In this document: piece by piece, positions 8,703 to 17,072 of the stretch
How the letters are laid out: the number at the start of each line of letters is the position of its first letter
Position numbering within the stretch: the first letter of the stretch is position 1
From: an uncultured Pirellulaceae bacterium
GTDB taxonomy: Bacteria; Planctomycetota; Planctomycetia; Pirellulales; Pirellulaceae
DNA: 64,000 bases
NCBI GenBank assembly: GCA_937941455.1
Contig: CALDHM010000010.1
Span: 124,001-188,000, forward strand
Direction: 5' to 3'
Program-made: the position numbers and the translations under genes
The notes under the pieces: model-generated
What the model was told of the DNA's origin: nothing
The model's input: the letters and a program-made list of their open reading frames with translations, nothing else
The model's database searches: none

Positions 8703-9155
8703 AATGCGGAAAAATTTGTCGCATTGATCCGAGCGGCATTGGCCAGACGCAGCAATTGTGTCAGAATAGGTTCAATCTGAGCGGAATAGCAGCGAAGAGC
8801 ACGGTCCAACTTCGCCGGGGAACAGCAGACACTGTAAGCTGTTGCGAATAGCCGCAAAAAGCAGCCCCGATCATGGTCCTTCGGCTTTGGGAAGCGAGCG
8901 TCTGTGCCTGAAACGGTGGTTGCAATTCTATCCGTTCGAGAGCGAGCAAATCGTGATGAAATCCCATCGTGAGAATGCGGGCCGATTCGGCAATGGATTG
9001 GTGAAGTTTGAGGAATGTTTTTCGGTCCGACAGGTGACGGCGTAATTTTTTTTGGATCGACATTGTGAAAAAATTCACGATGTCGAACTGATGATCGGAA
9101 AGCGGCTCACACGGGCGGATTTCGGTTTTATTTACTTCGAGGTTTGAGCGTCAAG
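8703..9155. other. intergenic region upstream of nqrA
   Basis: About 450 bases. A 105-codon minus-strand frame (9078-8761) exists but has no recognisable sequence and would be divergent from nqrA; it is not called. The nqr promoter is expected here. A short inverted pair GTGAAAAAATTCAC at 9064-9077 could be an operator or chance. Confidence 0.35.
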
Positions 9156-10490
9156 ATGCAGCGAATTCAACGAGGTCTGAAGCTTCCGATTACCGGAGAG
9201 CCATCGCAAGATATCGAAAATGGGCCACCGATTACACGGGTCGGGCTGAATGGCGACGATTACATCGGGTTGGTGCCGAAGATGCTCGTGCAGGTTGGCG
9301 ACCAGGTGCAACTGGGCCAACCACTGTTCGAAGACAAAAAAAACGAGGGGGTTCTTTTCACCGCTCCCGCCAGTGGCCGGGTCATCGAAATCAACCGTGG
9401 CGCGAAGCGCAAATTCGAGTCGCTCGGCATTGAAATTGCTGGAGACCAAGAGCGTGAATTTGCCGCCCACCGCGACCTGCAATCGCTCAGCCGCGATCAA
9501 ATCGTGGTCCATCTGGCCGAGTCGGGTTTGTGGACCAGCCTGCGAACTCGTCCCTACAACAAAATTCCTCGGCTACGGAGTGAACCGCACAGCGTCTTCG
9601 TGACGGCAATGGACACCAATCCCCTGGCGGCCGATCCTGAATTGATCGTCGAGTACCACAAGGATCATTTCGTGGCCGGTTTGAATGTCGTGAGCAAGTT
9701 GACTCGCGGCAAGACGTTCGTCTGCACCCGCAATCATTCGCGAATTCCTGGCAAAGACGTGCCGGGCGTCCAATTCGAGGTGTTTGATGGGCCGCATCCT
9801 GCTGGTTTGCCGGGAACGCACATTCACTTCCTCGATCCCGTCGGTCCCAAGAAAACGGTCTGGTTCATCAACTATCAAGATGTCATCGCGATTGGACATC
9901 TGTTCACCACTGGGCGGATCATGACGGAGCGGACCATAGCCGTCGGTGGCCCGAGGGTGCGGAATCCGATCTTGCTGCGGACCCGCTTGGGTGCCCATGT
10001 CGGCGAATTGGTGGCTGGCCGTGTCCAAGGGACCAACAATCGCATCATCTCTGGCTCTGTGTTCAGTGGACGGAAATTTGCGCCGCCGCATGAATACTTG
10101 GGGCGCTATCACCTGCAAGTTTCCGTGCTCGAGGAGGGGAACCACCGCGAGTTTCTGGGCTGGCAAAAACCAGGAGCCGACAAATTTTCGGTGACGAAGG
10201 CCTATCTCGGATCGTGGCTTTCGCGGAAGCAGAATTTCACCACCAGCACGGGTGGCAGCCACCGCGCGATGGTTCCGATCGGCGTTTATGAGCGGGTGAT
10301 GCCGCTGGATATCCTGCCGACCCAACTGCTGCGAGCGCTATTGACGAAGGACACCGATACCGCTCAAGCCTTGGGTTGCCTGGAATTGGATGAAGAAGAC
10401 CTGGCGCTGTGCACCTTCGTTTGTCCCGGCAAACACGACTATGGTGCGGCGCTGCGAGAAAATCTGACCATGATCGAAAAAGACGGCTAG
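9156..10490 (+). CDS. nqrA: Na+-translocating NADH:quinone reductase subunit A
   Basis: 444 residues. The N-terminus [16 protein letters not shown] and the following [20 protein letters not shown] match the start of NqrA. The protein is the soluble subunit of Na+-NQR on the cytoplasmic face and is linked to quinone binding. A TTG at 9144 in frame would add four residues, but the GAGG at 9139-9142 is spaced for the ATG at 9156. It is the first gene of a complete six-gene nqr cluster (48 bases to nqrB). Length and content are normal for the family. Confidence 0.95.
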
Positions 10491-10538: not shown

Positions 10539-11834
10539 ATGCTTCGGAAACTGCTCGACAAAATCGAACCGCTGTTCAAGCCCGGGGGGAAGTACGAGAA
10601 GTTCTACCCTCTGTATGAGGCTCAAGATACCTTTTTGTTCACGCCCGGCGAGGTAACGCATGGCTCGACGCATGTCCGCGATGCGTTGGACCTCAAGCGG
10701 TTGATGAGCATGGTGATCGTCGCCTTGATTCCGTGCATTTTCATGGCCTGCTACAACACGGGCTACCAAGCCCAAAAGATCTTGCACGCGGCCGGCGAGG
10801 TTAAGCTGCCCGAAACGCTCTGGGATGGTTCTTGGCGTTACTCGATCATGGACGCCTTGGGGATCAACTACAAAGCGAATCGCGGCGAATTCCTGAGCTT
10901 TGGCAGCCTGCTCCCTTGCCTGATCCATGGTGCGCTGTTTTTCTTGCCGATCTACATCGTGACGATGGCCGTCGGGGGTACCTGCGAATTGATCTTCTCG
11001 ATCGTTCGCAAGCATGAAATTAATGAAGGCTTCTTGGTCACCGGCATGCTGTTCCCGCTCACCTTGCCGCCGAACATCCCGCTGTGGCAGGTCGCTCTCG
11101 GGATCGCGTTCGGCGTGGTAGTCGGCAAGGAAATTTTTGGCGGCACCGGGCGAAACTTCTTGAATCCGGCACTTACTGGCCGCGCGTTTTTGTATTTTGC
11201 CTACGCGAAGGAAATTTCCGGTGACAAAGTCTGGACGGCTGTCGACGGCTACAGCGGCGCGACCGGTCTGGGGCAAATCAATGCCGTTGAACCGGGTACC
11301 GCCACCGCGGCGATGATGGCCAGTTTGAGCGGTACATACAACGGCGAAAAAATCGCGGCGGGCGCGGCGAGTTGGTGGGACGCTTTCATCGGCAATATGC
11401 ATGGCTCGATGGGAGAAACCAGTGCCTTGGCCTGCTTGATCGGCGCGGTGATCCTGATAGCCACCCGCATCGGCTCATGGCAAATCATGGCGGGCACGTT
11501 GGTCGGCTTGCTCGGCTTGTCCACGGTCTTCTGGTTGCTCCCCTTCCATGCGGCCGCCTACCATATTCCCCCCTGGTGGCATTTGGTGATTGGCAGCTAC
11601 GCCTTCGGTGCCGTTTTCATGGCCACCGATCCGGTATCGGCGGCGATGACCACCAAAGGAAAGTGGCTGTATGGCATCCTGATCGGCGTCGTGACGGTGA
11701 TTGTCCGGTGCATGAACGTGGGATTCGCCGAAGGGGTAATGCTCGCCATCTTGTTCGCCAATACATGTGCTCCGTTGATCGATTACTTTGTTGTGCAGCA
11801 GAACGTCAAACGGCGATTGCTGCGAACGGCCTGA
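10539..11834 (+). CDS. nqrB: Na+-NQR subunit B (covalent FMN, membrane)
   Basis: 431 residues with about ten hydrophobic segments. The covalent FMN site is visible as the SGAT motif with Thr242 ([10 protein letters not shown]), the residue flavinylated by ApbE. NqrB forms much of the Na+ channel and also holds riboflavin and the quinone site region. The N-terminal cytoplasmic stretch ([15 protein letters not shown]) is characteristic. It sits 16 bases before nqrC and 48 after nqrA, so it belongs to the nqr operon. Confidence 0.96.
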
Positions 11835-11850
11835 GGGAGATGATCTGCCA

Positions 11851-12630
11851 ATGAACAAAGACAGTATTGCCAACACCATCATCACGGCGATCGTGCTGTG
11901 CCTGGTTTGCTCCACGATCGTCTCGTTCGCTTCGGTCGGTCTGCGCAATCGCCAGAACGAGAACCGAGCCTTGGACAAAAAGAAAAATGTGCTGTTGGCG
12001 GCCGGATTGCTTGAAGGTGCCTCAACGCGCAAGGTAAGCGAAGTCTTCGCAGAGCGAATCGAGACGCGAATCATCGACCTGGAAACGGGAGCGGACGTTA
12101 CGAAGGAGTACGACAAGCCCGACGAATTCGATCCGGCCCCCCTGCTAATCTATCGCGAGCATCGCGTGGACATTCCCGCCGACCAGGACCTCGCTCAAAT
12201 CAAACAACGCGAATTGCGAGCGCCGGTCTATGTGATCAAGACCTCTGCGACCGACAACACGCCACTCGGCTACGTCTTTCCAGTCCGCGGCAAAGGGCTG
12301 TGGTCGACACTCCGCGGCTTTTTGGCGATGGATGCTGGAATGAAGAACTCGATCGGCATCACCTTCTACGAGCACGCCGAAACGCCCGGTTTGGGGGCCG
12401 AGATCGAGGCCGACTATTTTCGCAATGCCTGGAAAGGCGCCAAAATCTTCGACGACAAGGGGCAAATCGTGATCGAAATCACGAAGGCTCGCGTGGAGGG
12501 GGCTAACAATCAAATCGACTCTCTCTCCGGCGCCACGATCACATCGGAGGGGGTCGAAAAGCTGGTGAAGTTTTGGCTCGGTGAAAACGGCTTCGGCCGC
12601 TTCATTGCGTCCCTGACAAAAGCTTCGTAA
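11851..12630 (+). CDS. nqrC: Na+-NQR subunit C (covalent FMN)
   Basis: 259 residues: one N-terminal membrane anchor (about 8-30) and a periplasmic FMN-binding domain. The flavinylation motif is DSLSGATIT with Thr229 as acceptor, which matches the ApbE target consensus and the one in NqrB. The ATG at 11851 follows GAGGGAGATG and is preferred over an upstream in-frame ATG (11788) inside nqrB. Third gene of the operon, 52 bases before nqrD. Confidence 0.95.
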   Translation: MNKDSIANTIITAIVLCLVCSTIVSFASVGLRNRQNENRALDKKKNVLLAAGLLEGASTRKVSEVFAERIETRIIDLETGADVTKEYDKPDEFDPAPLLIYREHRVDIPADQDLAQIKQRELRAPVYVIKTSATDNTPLGYVFPVRGKGLWSTLRGFLAMDAGMKNSIGITFYEHAETPGLGAEIEADYFRNAWKGAKIFDDKGQIVIEITKARVEGANNQIDSLSGATITSEGVEKLVKFWLGENGFGRFIASLTKAS

Positions 12631-12682: not shown

Positions 12683-13306
12683 ATGGCAGAATCTAACGTC
12701 AAGTCGATCCTTTGGACGCCCATCTTGCGGCGCAATCCGATCGCGCTGCTGGTGCTGGGTATTTGTTCCGCCCTTGCGGTTACTACCAAATTGGACAAAA
12801 CACTAATCATGTGTGCGGCGGTGACCTTCACCGTTTGCATGTCGAACATGGCAGTCTCGCTGATCCGCAATCATATCCCCAGCAGTATTCGGATCATCGT
12901 CCAAATGACCATCATCGCTTCGATCGTGATCTTGGTCGATCAATTCCTCAGGGCGTATTTCTACGCATTGTCGAAGGAATTGTCCGTGTTCGTCGGTCTG
13001 ATCATCACCAACTGCATCGTGATGGGCCGCGCCGAAGGCTTCGCGATGAGCAATAACGTGCGGGACAGCTTTTTCGATGGACTCGGGAATGGCCTCGGGT
13101 ACAGCTTGGTGCTCATTTGCGTGGCGATTGTTCGCGAATCGCTCGGCTCGGGAAGCTTGCTGGGATTCAAGTTGCCTGTACTCGGGAACCCCGATTGGTA
13201 TACCCCGAACGGCTTGATGTTCACTCCTCCGAGCGCGTTTTTCTTGATCGCTGCCTTCATTTGGGCGGTGCGGACGGTTTACAAAGACCAACAAGAGAAG
13301 GAATAA
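12683..13306 (+). CDS. nqrD: Na+-NQR subunit D (membrane, Fe site)
   Basis: 207 residues, about six membrane helices, start [20 protein letters not shown] typical of NqrD. The two conserved Cys expected to ligate the intramembrane iron centre shared with NqrE are present (Cys28 and Cys111, in GICSAL and [12 protein letters not shown]). Stop and the nqrE start are separated by only three bases, so translation is probably coupled. Confidence 0.96.
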
Positions 13307-13309
13307 ACC

Positions 13310-13930
13310 ATGTGGAATTATTCGTACGACCTGTTCAGCCTGTTCATGCGAGCTGTGTTCGTCGAGAACCTCGCGTTGGCTTTCTTTCTCGGCATGTGCA
13401 CCTTCATTGCCGTTTCAAAGAACGTCAAGACCGCCATCGGGTTGGCGATTGCCGTCGTTTTGGTGCAGACGATCACCGTCCCGACCAATAACCTCCTTTA
13501 CAACTACATGCTGAAGCCGGGGGCCCTCGCATGGCTCGGCTCGAATTTCAAAGATCTGGATTTGTCGTTTCTCGGCTTGATCGTTTACATCGGCGTGGTG
13601 GCGGCGATGGTGCAGATCATGGAAATGATTCTCGACAAGTACTTCCCTGCCTTATACAACACGCTGGGGATTTTCTTGCCGCTGATCACGGTCAACTGCG
13701 CGATTCTGGGCGGCTCGCTGTTCATGGTCGAAAACAAATACGATTTCCCGCAAAGTGTCGTTTACGGCCTGGGGGCTGGCTTCGGCTGGGGGCTCGCGAT
13801 CATGCTCCTTGCGGCCATTCGCGAAAAATTGCGATACGCTGATATTCCGGCCGGTTTACGCGGCTTGGGGATCACGTTCGTCATTTGTGGTCTGATGGCT
13901 CTCGGCTTCATGTCGTTCCAAGGCATTTAA
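13310..13930 (+). CDS. nqrE: Na+-NQR subunit E (membrane, Fe site)
   Basis: 206 residues, paralogous and inverted in topology to NqrD. It carries the matching Cys pair (Cys30 in FLGMCTF and Cys130 in [13 protein letters not shown]) that completes the four-Cys iron site in the membrane, whose assembly in other bacteria needs NqrM. A strong NqrE signature is [14 protein letters not shown]. Placed 3 bases after nqrD. Confidence 0.96.
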
Positions 13931-14009
13931 GAATCGCTGATCGTTCCGGAATTTCGCTTCAGGCTTGAAGGCTCGCGCCCAACGGCCAACCAACTCCACG
14001 AGACTTTAT

Positions 14010-15296
14010 ATGGCACCAATCCCTCAACTCAATTTTTTGCCCATAGCCGCCTGGGACCTCTTGGCTTCAACCAACACCCAAGCTCTCAGCTCCAGCGTGG
14101 TCATGTTCACTGGGGTGGTGATGGCCCTGGTTGCCTTGATTCTGGTGGCCAAAAACTTTTTGGTTCCCAAAGGCAAAGTCAAAATCAAGGTCAACGGCCA
14201 AAAAGAATTCGAGGTGCCGATGGGGGGCAAACTTATGGGTGCCCTGGCTGATCAAGGCATTTTCGTTTCGTCCGCTTGCGGTGGTGGCGGAACCTGCGCT
14301 CAGTGCAAGGTCAAGGTCCTCGAGGGTGGCGGAGATATCCTGCCCACCGAAAAGTCCCATATCAATAAACGCGCCGAACGAGAGGGTGTCCGCTTGAGCT
14401 GTCAAGTGGCCGTCAAGCAAAACATGGTGGTCGAAGTCCCCCACGAGGCGTTCGAAACCAAAAAATGGCTGTGCACGGTTCGCTCCAACCGCAACGTCGC
14501 GACGTTCATCAAGGAACTGGTGCTGGAACTGCCACCCGGCGAAGAGGTCGACTTCAAAGCCGGGGGCTACATTCAAATCGAGTGCCCACCGCACCACGTG
14601 AATTACAAAGACTTCGTGATCGAGGAACGGTTCCATCCGGACTGGGATAAATACAACGTCTGGCAATATGAATCGAAGGTCACCGAACCCGTCACTCGAG
14701 CCTATTCGATGGCTAACTATCCGGGCGAAAAGGGGATCATCATGCTCAACGTCCGTGTGGCGACTCCGCCCCCCCGCATTCCCAACGCTCCTCCCGGAAA
14801 AATGTCGTCCTACATTTTCAGCCTCAAACCGGGGGACAAGGTCACGATTGCTGGCCCCTTCGGCGAGTTTTTCATCAAGGACACGAATGCCGAAATGGTT
14901 TACATCGGCGGTGGTGCCGGGATGGCCCCGCTGCGAAGCCACATCTTCGAGCTATTCAAACGTCGAAGGACGAACCGCAAGGTTTCCTACTGGTACGGCG
15001 GTCGCAGCCTGCGTGAACTGTTCTACGTCGAGCACTTCCGTGAAATCGAGAAGGAATTCCCAAACTTCAAGTTCAATATCGCACTGTCCGAACCGCTCCC
15101 CGAAGACAACTGGACGGGCTACAAGGGGTTCATCCATCAGGTTTTGCTGGACGAATACCTCAGCAAACATCCGGCCCCCGAGGACATCGAATATTACCTT
15201 TGCGGACCACCTATGATGAATCAAGCAGTTTTCAAAATGCTGGACGATCTGGGCGTTCCGCCGGAAAACATCGCCTTCGACGATTTCGGTGGCTAG
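14010..15296 (+). CDS. nqrF: Na+-NQR subunit F (NADH dehydrogenase, 2Fe-2S, FAD)
   Basis: 428 residues: an N-terminal membrane helix (about 30-50), then a plant-type 2Fe-2S ferredoxin domain with Cys90, Cys96, Cys99 and Cys131, then an FAD/NADH reductase domain with [13 protein letters not shown] (FAD), [12 protein letters not shown] (NADH) and [12 protein letters not shown]. It is the electron entry point of the complex on the cytoplasmic side. The ATG at 14010 is chosen over the in-frame TTG at 13965. The N-terminus before the helix is slightly long. There is a 79-base gap after nqrE, but the gene clearly belongs to the cluster. Confidence 0.96.
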
Positions 15297-15306
15297 GCTT
15301 CGTGTC

Positions 15307-15352
15307 TAAACCGTAAGCCGCAGTGCCCTAGCCTGCGGTTCTCGCGAAATCC
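15307..15352 (+). repeat. interspersed repeat, CCGTAAGCC...CCGGACGC type
   Basis: Aligns with 27757-27808: both read (A)ACCGTAAGCC, then a variable hairpin-like segment, then TCTCGxGAAA and CCGGACGC. Intergenic and palindrome-rich, REP-like. Confidence 0.6.
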
Positions 15353-15440
15353 GGACGCTAACCTGTTCTCGCTAATTGCTTGAGGACAAAGCCCAGTAAC
15401 ACTAGCAAACCACTTGGCTTAATCATCTCAAACCGTTGAG

Positions 15441-15489
15441 AGTCTATCCCACAACCACCAGCATCCGAAACCCGAAGCATAAGCGCGGG
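15441..15489 (+). repeat. degenerate CCGAAGCG-type repeat
   Basis: GTCTATCCCACAAC followed 16 bases later by ACCCGAAGCATAAGCGCGGG, matching the terminal word and core of the better copies at 25043 and 57473. Confidence 0.45.
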
Positions 15490-15506
15490 CTGGTCGCGGG
15501 AAAGGC

Positions 15507-15541
15507 CATTAGCCGAAACGCTCTAGCGTCCGGTTTTCGTA
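15507..15541 (-). repeat. CCGGACGC-type repeat, inverted copy
   Basis: On the minus strand it reads GAAAACCGGACGCTAGAGCG then TTTCGGCTAA, close to the GAAAACCGGACGCAACCGCG then TTCCGGCTGAA segment of the copy at 27757-27827. Confidence 0.5.
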
Positions 15542-15788
15542 TCAACTGTGGAATATTGCCTTGTCGCTGACAGCCAGCGGACCAAGCCACGTATCTTCCA
15601 GTTGGACAAAATCGAGGGTGGACAACCCTTAATTCGAGGTCGAGAGGGCTGGGCTACAACACATCGGACGTGCGTTTGCCTGCCATTCAGCCAATGGAAA
15701 ATACTTTGCGAAAGCCCGGCCGACTCGTCCGCAGGCGTTTTGTTGGGATACGCACCGACGATTTCATATTCGCCAAACCATCTGGACC

Positions 15789-17072
15789 ATGATTTTCATG
15801 AACGACTCGAGACGAACGCGGATCGCTGCAATGCTGTTGGCGGTAATGTGGGTCGCTGCGACCGTTGCCAGTGCCCAAGATGTCGTGCACAGCTGGTCGG
15901 GCAAGACCATGGGGCCGATCGACTACACCGTGAAAATCATCGGCCCGAAACAGATTGACGTCGAACCCGTACAAGCTGAGGTTACTGCTGTTCTCGAATC
16001 GGTGAACTCGTGCATGTCGACGTATCAACCGGATTCGGAGATCAGCCGCTTCAATCGCAGCCAGTCCACCGATTGGTTCTCGGTCACCAACGCGACGGCG
16101 GTAGTTATCAAACGATCCCTAGAAATCAGCGAAATCACGCAGGGGGCGTTTGACATTACCGTCAAACCGATCGTCGAGCGATGGAATTTCGGCGCAGGAA
16201 AACAAAGCGACTTTACCCCCCCCTCGACTGAAGAAACCCGGGCTCTGCTCGAACGGATTGGCTACCGCAAACTAGCAGTTCGGCTCGAACCGCCAGCCAT
16301 CCGCAAAACGGAACCGCACTTGCAAATCGATCTTTCGGCCATCGCCAAAGGTTACGCAGTGGACTTGGTTTCGGCGAAATTGACAGAACTCGGATTTCCA
16401 GCGCACTTCGTGGAGATCGGCGGCGAGGTGCGGGCGCACGGTGCCAAGCCCAATGGACGCCCCTGGGTGGTGGCGATCGAAAAGCCGACCGTAGGGGTCC
16501 GTCAACTCGATCGCACCGCCGCGATTCGCGATGCCGCCATGGCGACGTCGGGGAACTATCGAAATTTCGTCGAAGTCGCCGGTCGCCGCCGTTCGCATAC
16601 GATTGATCCGCGGACCGGCGAACCGATCGAAAATCATGTCGCCAGCGTGTCCGTCGTCGCGGCCGATTGCATGACCGCCGACGCTTTGGCCACAGCAATC
16701 ATGGTGCTTGGGCCTGCCGAGGCAGCACGCCTTGCCGAACAACGGCGGTTCAGCGTTTTCGTGATCGAGTTGGACGGCGGAGAGCGAACAGAGACGATCG
16801 CCGGGGATTTTCCGTTTTACGAACTCGATGTCTCTAGCGCTGCCGCGGATGGCCCAACAATTTGGACGGCATTGATCGCAGCGTTCGTATTGTTTGGATT
16901 GGCTGTACTCGGCATGGCGATCGGAGCGATTTTTTCGAGGCGTCCCATTCAAGGGTCCTGTGGTGGCCTCGCTGCGACAACCAATCCAGACGGTTCAACC
17001 CGTTGTTCGCTTTGCCAAAACCCCAGCCAAGACTGCCGCGAGAAACAGACGGGCGAACCTTCTCGTCGATAA
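15789..17072 (+). CDS. apbE-nqrM: fused FAD:protein FMN transferase and NqrM-like maturation factor
   Basis: 427 residues. Residues 1-30 are a signal sequence (basic RRTR, hydrophobic run, cleavage near ASAQ). Residues about 35-345 are ApbE: TMGPIDYTVKI, PDSEISRFN, DLSAIAKGYAVDLVSA, HTIDPRTGEPI and ADCMTADALATA. ApbE moves FMN from FAD to Thr in the SGAT motifs, here NqrB Thr242 and NqrC Thr229. Residues about 358-383 are a membrane helix, followed by RRPIQGSCGGL and Cys391, Cys406, Cys409, Cys416, which is the NqrM (DUF539) pattern; NqrM is needed for the NqrD/E iron site. Topology fits: ApbE outside, Arg-flanked Cys tail inside. In Vibrio these are two separate genes after nqrF. Confidence 0.92.
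   Translation: MIFMNDSRRTRIAAMLLAVMWVAATVASAQDVVHSWSGKTMGPIDYTVKIIGPKQIDVEPVQAEVTAVLESVNSCMSTYQPDSEISRFNRSQSTDWFSVTNATAVVIKRSLEISEITQGAFDITVKPIVERWNFGAGKQSDFTPPSTEETRALLERIGYRKLAVRLEPPAIRKTEPHLQIDLSAIAKGYAVDLVSAKLTELGFPAHFVEIGGEVRAHGAKPNGRPWVVAIEKPTVGVRQLDRTAAIRDAAMATSGNYRNFVEVAGRRRSHTIDPRTGEPIENHVASVSVVAADCMTADALATAIMVLGPAEAARLAEQRRFSVFVIELDGGERTETIAGDFPFYELDVSSAAADGPTIWTALIAAFVLFGLAVLGMAIGAIFSRRPIQGSCGGLAATTNPDGSTRCSLCQNPSQDCREKQTGEPSRR

Follow-up and report, generated by a model that had tools for sequence, protein, structure and literature searches.

Na+-NQR is one of the principal respiratory pumps in many marine bacteria and in pathogens and, to our knowledge, little is understood of how its membrane Fe centre is assembled. 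For the Vibrio enzyme, the accessible parts of two accounts (PMC12174285; PMC6209661) describe two maturation factors, viz. ApbE, which attaches FMN to the subunits NqrB and NqrC, and NqrM, which is required for the Fe centre. The Vibrio genes for these proteins are located downstream of nqrF. The two frames directly adjoin each other, separated by just one stop codon, in Vibrio xiamenensis and in several loci of Marinobacter. The stand-alone form of NqrM (DUF539, PF04400) consists of a single helix, a basic loop, GSCGG and further Cys residues. ApbE can also be a domain of a larger protein, as in the ApbE-fumarate reductase fusion of trypanosomatids described in the accessible text of PMC12052999.

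The window considered here (the whole stretch of DNA that was analysed, 64,000 nucleotides in length) is from the genome of an uncultured Pirellulaceae bacterium, whose assembly of 4.04 Mb in 77 contigs is about 96% complete. The same two proteins follow nqrA-F in this window as in Vibrio; however, whereas apbE and nqrM are two genes in Vibrio, they form one gene in the window. The tail of the encoded protein has all of the above features in common with the stand-alone NqrM, but unlike in the latter a whole ApbE enzyme precedes the helix. Similar to the trypanosomatid protein, ApbE is here a domain of a larger protein, but its partner is not a client enzyme, as it is in the trypanosomatids, but a further maturation factor, which has the same complex as its target. 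An ApbE-NqrM fusion is not named in the parts of the literature on NqrM, ApbE, Na+-NQR and flavinylation that our searches covered, although an earlier mention is possible. Term searches in the accessible text of PMC12052999, PMC8238504, PMC12174285 and PMC6209661 did not show this fusion, nor did a similar search in that of PMC12682751, where NqrM occurs in a reference only. Both parts of the protein are known maturation factors, and the enzyme for which they act is known as well; the fusion described here is real and recurrent.

The fused gene and its two domains

The features of the locus are listed in Table 1. Both domains are present in one protein, which has a signal-like start, a full ApbE domain, one membrane helix and, at its end, an NqrM tail containing four Cys residues. 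The preliminary description of this DNA had recognized an ApbE domain followed in the same frame by a membrane helix and a Cys tail, and the Pfam matches to both ApbE and NqrM within a single open frame of 427 aa bear this out; further, Cys391, 406, 409 and 416 are found at the positions which it named. The complete set of Cys residues in the protein comprises these four and Cys75 and Cys294. GSCGGL starts at residue 389, and an Arg pair (R384-R385) comes after the helix. In an AlphaFold2 model made from 31 fused sequences (mean pLDDT 86.6), the N-terminal helix, the ApbE part (residues 32-338, approximately) and the membrane helix are all seen, the Cys tail being of low confidence and residues 351-360 of moderate confidence only. 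The N-terminus is read as a signal peptide.

Table 1. Features of the nqr locus and of the fused apbE-nqrM gene in the window
Feature	Position	Strand	Remarks
nqrA	9144..10490	+	Own NCBIfam model
nqrB	10539..11834	+	Own NCBIfam model; flavinylation motif DGYSGAT at 11244-11264
nqrC	11851..12630	+	Own NCBIfam model; start at MNKDSIA chosen; motif DSLSGAT at 12517-12537
nqrD	12683..13306	+	Own NCBIfam model; both Cys motifs (GICSALA and TNCIVMG)
nqrE	13310..13930	+	Own NCBIfam model; both Cys motifs present
nqrF	13965..15296	+	Own NCBIfam model; uncertain start; 492 bases between its end and the fusion
Fused apbE-nqrM gene, 427 aa	15789..17072	+	Single open frame; alternative start 15798
N-terminal signal-like segment	15789..15875	+	AlphaFold2 helix 7-25; ASAQD at residues 27-31
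ApbE flavin-transferase domain	15924..16745	+	Pfam, residues 46-319, E 3.5e-85
SHTIDP with H270	16593..16610	+	H270 aligned to the His mutated in 6NXJ (H257G)
TADALAT with D298	16674..16694	+	D298 invariant across 31 aligned fused proteins
Membrane helix, residues 358-383	16860..16937	+	AlphaFold2; pLDDT 91-92 over residues 361-380
NqrM domain, GSCGGL	16929..17024	+	Pfam, residues 381-412; Cys391, 406 and 409 inside, Cys416 just beyond

The match to the Pfam ApbE family (PF02424) is full-length, extending over model positions 5-258 of 266, and the NCBIfam equivalog model for ApbE gives 234.6 bits, which is below its own cut-off of 498. All 39 PDB chains that Foldseek returned at E <= 0.001 are of the ApbE type (ApbE, Ftp or FmnB), and the V. 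cholerae ApbE structure 6NXI superimposes on the fusion with a TM-score of 0.90 by target length. H270 is aligned with the catalytic His257 of V. cholerae ApbE, which is Gly in the mutant structure. Along with D298 and the four tail Cys residues (C391, C406, C409 and C416), H270 is invariant in an alignment of 31 of the 37 fused proteins found, the omitted six being G207, G666, G167, G529 and G561 (the last three being relatives of rows that were kept), and G492. G492 has SHTIHP where the others have SHxID; by eye, it retains both H270 and D298.

The tail is detected by the Pfam NqrM model (PF04400) with an E value of 8.1e-6 and a score of 26 bits (cut-off 22), over model positions 2-29 of 43, the modest score being due to the shortness of this model. 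A planctomycete NqrM model of 22 rows, comprising both fused and separate forms, matches it at 92.6 bits (E 3.5e-26), the tail itself being one of its rows, and a model made from 11 proteobacterial NqrM rows finds the tail at E 3.2e-15 and no other match, with E up to 1, in the whole genome. Conversely, the planctomycete model recovers the separate NqrM directly following apbE in Vibrio xiamenensis (E 5e-18) and Photobacterium (E 8e-18). When nine fused tails were compared with the 11 proteobacterial rows by hhalign a value of 99.4% was obtained, which rules out a chance Cys tail. The layout is also that of NqrM, viz. one membrane helix followed by a basic loop and GSCGG, and the four Cys residues and the Gly of GxCGG are invariant in the 31 aligned proteins. 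One difference concerns the Cys spacing, which is CX2C in the fusion of the window and CNC or CDC in the Vibrio-type rows. Based on this homology the tail is a true NqrM, in accordance with the preliminary assignment. In an NCBIfam scan, the fusion matched the ApbE model and no NqrM model.

Genomic context of the fusion

The genes nqrA-F are complete and adjacent upstream of the fusion, and for all six subunits the score exceeds the cut-off set for the respective TIGRFAM-type model. The Cys motifs of NqrD and NqrE we take to be ligands of the Fe centre. The flavinylation motifs of NqrB and NqrC fit the DxxSGAT form given in the accessible text of PMC12052999. FMN_bind matches in the genome are limited to NqrC and NqrB/RnfD matches to NqrB, and because of this NQR is the only ApbE client recognized in this genome. 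Two ApbE copies are present, viz. the fusion and a second one on another contig (C33:33768-34586; L168), which looks intact and whose neighbours include FdhD/NarQ and AnmK-like genes. A second nqrM, the presence of which would have spoken against the preliminary description, was not found in the 77 contigs of this approximately 96% complete genome by any of three models. As nqrF and the fusion are separated by 492 bases (15297-15788), their co-transcription is not assured; no promoter-like match was found in this gap and terminator-like matches were no more numerous than in shuffles, and likewise the promoter and terminator scans around the fusion gave no excess over shuffled sequence.

Distribution of fused and separate forms

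Homologs were sought in two sets of genomes, viz. a phylum sample (391 genomes) and an order sample (296 genomes). In the phylum sample the Pfam NqrM model detected 25 genomes, the planctomycete model 65, and nqrA was over its cut-off in 75; in the order sample the planctomycete model detected 91 genomes, and nqrA (E <= 1e-80) was found in 122. Every positive genome of both samples, inclusive of those with the fusion, has exactly one NqrM match. The two NqrM lists share 13 genomes and their union is 143, of which 142 were classified after leaving out G571 (a weak match). A one-frame fusion is present in 37 of these 142 NqrM-bearing planctomycete genomes, 75 have apbE directly upstream as a separate frame, in 29 apbE is absent from the upstream stretch (about 1.5-1.7 kb seen, sometimes ended by a contig end), and one has no usable NqrM match. 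The GTDB contig scan confirmed at least 589 relatives, and among the best 80 of these, whose choice favoured fusions, 11 loci carry the fusion, 59 have the tandem arrangement and the other 10 have no adjacent NqrM. Ten of the 11 fused loci bear the label Planctomycetota or that of one of its families; L060, which is among these ten, is probably the same record as the contig of G212, the two contigs being equal in length. The remaining fused locus, L096, is on a contig from a MAG with the label Nitrosomonas sp., in which the fusion, as read, follows nqrE and nqrF; it possibly represents a fusion outside Planctomycetota, a binning error being the alternative. The fusion is not special to the genome of the window.

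With respect to location, nqrA is found within 12 kb of 28 of the 37 fused genes and of 66 of the 75 tandem genes. In the phylum sample alone most of the fused genes looked unlinked from nqrA, suggesting that the fusion was tied to leaving the nqr operon; however, the above numbers show that this does not hold generally. Of the remaining fused genes three share a contig with nqrA but are distant from it, five are on another contig (where the linkage may have been cut by contig ends) and for one no nqrA was found, and due to these cases a location in the operon is not obligatory. Six of the eight genes that are distant or on another contig belong to one family (f6). Separately, in genus g275 a lone NqrM lies far from nqrA with no apbE directly upstream (L202, L203, L206 and L268; G533, G663 and G569) and has additional N-terminal residues ahead of the helix; this form may have come from the fused protein by fission.

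Another family (f2) has NQR with no standard NqrM. None of its 32 genomes with nqrA in the order sample has an NqrM match by the planctomycete model. When the region downstream of the best apbE was surveyed in ten f2 genomes, in two of which no apbE frame was found, four contained a small ORF encoding a helix and a CxC motif, with GSCGG absent. Examples from this family are L279 (G607), L280 (G634), L278 (G589), L277 (G268) and L222 (G666); the motif is CSC, or CNC in G268, and in G666, which has no nqrA match, the CSC tail is fused to ApbE. A comparison of five such tails with NqrM by hhalign gave only 72%, and both Cys motifs of NqrD and of NqrE are present in all seven f2 regions read (L259-L265). 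The CxC protein is likely a divergent NqrM.

Evolutionary origin of the fusion

The joint proteins were mapped on trees of ApbE. The fused or tandem label needs 16 changes on a tree of 189 rows, and 15 after removal of the 10 rows in which no NqrM is adjacent, with at least four of them forced by well supported branches and about 41 needed for shuffled labels. For the 110 rows from the sample genomes, 12 changes are needed on the 189-row tree, and 14 on a separate tree of 109 rows from which G666 was omitted. A single fused clade is rejected on the 109-row tree (AU p 1.1e-43), these trees being quick ones with long branches flagged and the tested group being defined by the trait itself. Due to this rejection it is concluded from the trees that the fusion was gained or lost more than once, the two not being separable by parsimony. 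Because tandem apbE and nqrM are commonly arranged end to end, the fusion is a small step, involving the loss of a stop codon and, in about two-thirds of cases, a change of frame. In 24 of the 75 tandem pairs the two genes overlap by 1 or 4 bases, based on start codons chosen by the script. The number of pairs in the same frame (24 of 75) is about the one-third expected by chance and all three stop codons are used, by which stop-codon readthrough in the tandem pairs is rejected; that same-frame pairs are numerous among the named loci is probably due to selection by the tblastn confirmation step.

Proposed function and alternative explanations

We consider it probable (roughly 0.85) that the fusion is a bifunctional maturase of Na+-NQR, which serves flavinylation of NqrB and NqrC on the outside and the NqrD/NqrE Fe centre from the inside, the activities of the two parts being those that we infer from their families. 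The N-terminus would be exported, so that the ApbE domain would be periplasmic and would take FMN from FAD and attach it to the Thr of the NqrB and NqrC motifs, while a single stop-transfer helix would return the chain to the cytoplasmic side, where the NqrM tail, with its four Cys residues, would deliver or place iron for the Cys-ligated centre situated between NqrD and NqrE. Joining of the two parts would hold the flavin and iron steps together at a 1:1 ratio. As ApbE works outside the cytoplasm and one helix comes after the exported ApbE, the Cys tail is expected inside. This is the topology that had been suggested in the preliminary description (ApbE periplasmic, NqrM cytoplasmic), and both the predicted helix and the net charges agree with it: over 35 fused proteins (the 37 minus G207, which is situated at the edge of its contig, and G666, whose tail is atypical and lacks GSCGG) the 20 residues before the helix have on average 1.4 K/R and 3.2 D/E, and the 20 residues after it 2.6 K/R and 0.9 D/E. 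However, K/R counts alone are less clear, as in only 21 of the 35 proteins do the 9 residues after the helix contain more K/R than the 20 residues preceding it, with 7 ties. The arrangement of ApbE, helix and Cys tail therefore argues for an N-out, C-in orientation of NqrM in general.

That the join is an artefact, in which a frameshift or a missed stop has merged two neighbours, is extremely improbable. Although the two genes are separate adjacent frames in 75 of the classified genomes, the shared frame recurs in 37, including the single-contig assemblies G226, G234 and G348, and in 11 of the best 80 of the at least 589 relatives, and the helix and Cys tail are preserved among the fused proteins. 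The shared frame likewise removes the frameshift error against which the preliminary description had cautioned, and its overall reading of an ApbE-NqrM maturation protein is upheld. It could be supposed that the NqrM tail is defunct and a mere membrane tether for ApbE, in view of the partial coverage of the Pfam NqrM model and of the description of ApbE as membrane-bound in the accessible text of PMC12052999. However, this is very unlikely when the invariance of the four Cys residues and of the Gly is considered together with the finding of no other NqrM in the genome of the window, the single match in each of the other fused genomes and the four Cys residues kept in NqrD/NqrE. It is also unlikely that the fusion is a precursor which is cut after export into ApbE and NqrM, for although the linker is variable in length and sequence, and residues 351-360 are those modelled with moderate confidence, no constant linker site is visible in ten fused proteins. 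The bifunctional maturase is preferred to these alternatives. As a more tentative extension of it, which we regard as somewhat doubtful, flavin attachment outside and building of the Fe centre inside might take place in one assembly intermediate, with the maturase docked on NqrB-C-D-E and the orientation of NqrM fixed (helix N-terminus out, Cys tail in).

Significance

Since the NCBIfam scan matched the ApbE model only, a genome similar to that of the window could be recorded as lacking nqrM. The fusion provides one protein for purifying or imaging the NQR assembly complex and, if both steps do occur in one intermediate, it would be a natural tool for trapping this intermediate. The recurrence of this fusion constitutes genomic evidence that the flavin and iron steps in the maturation of Na+-NQR belong together in space.
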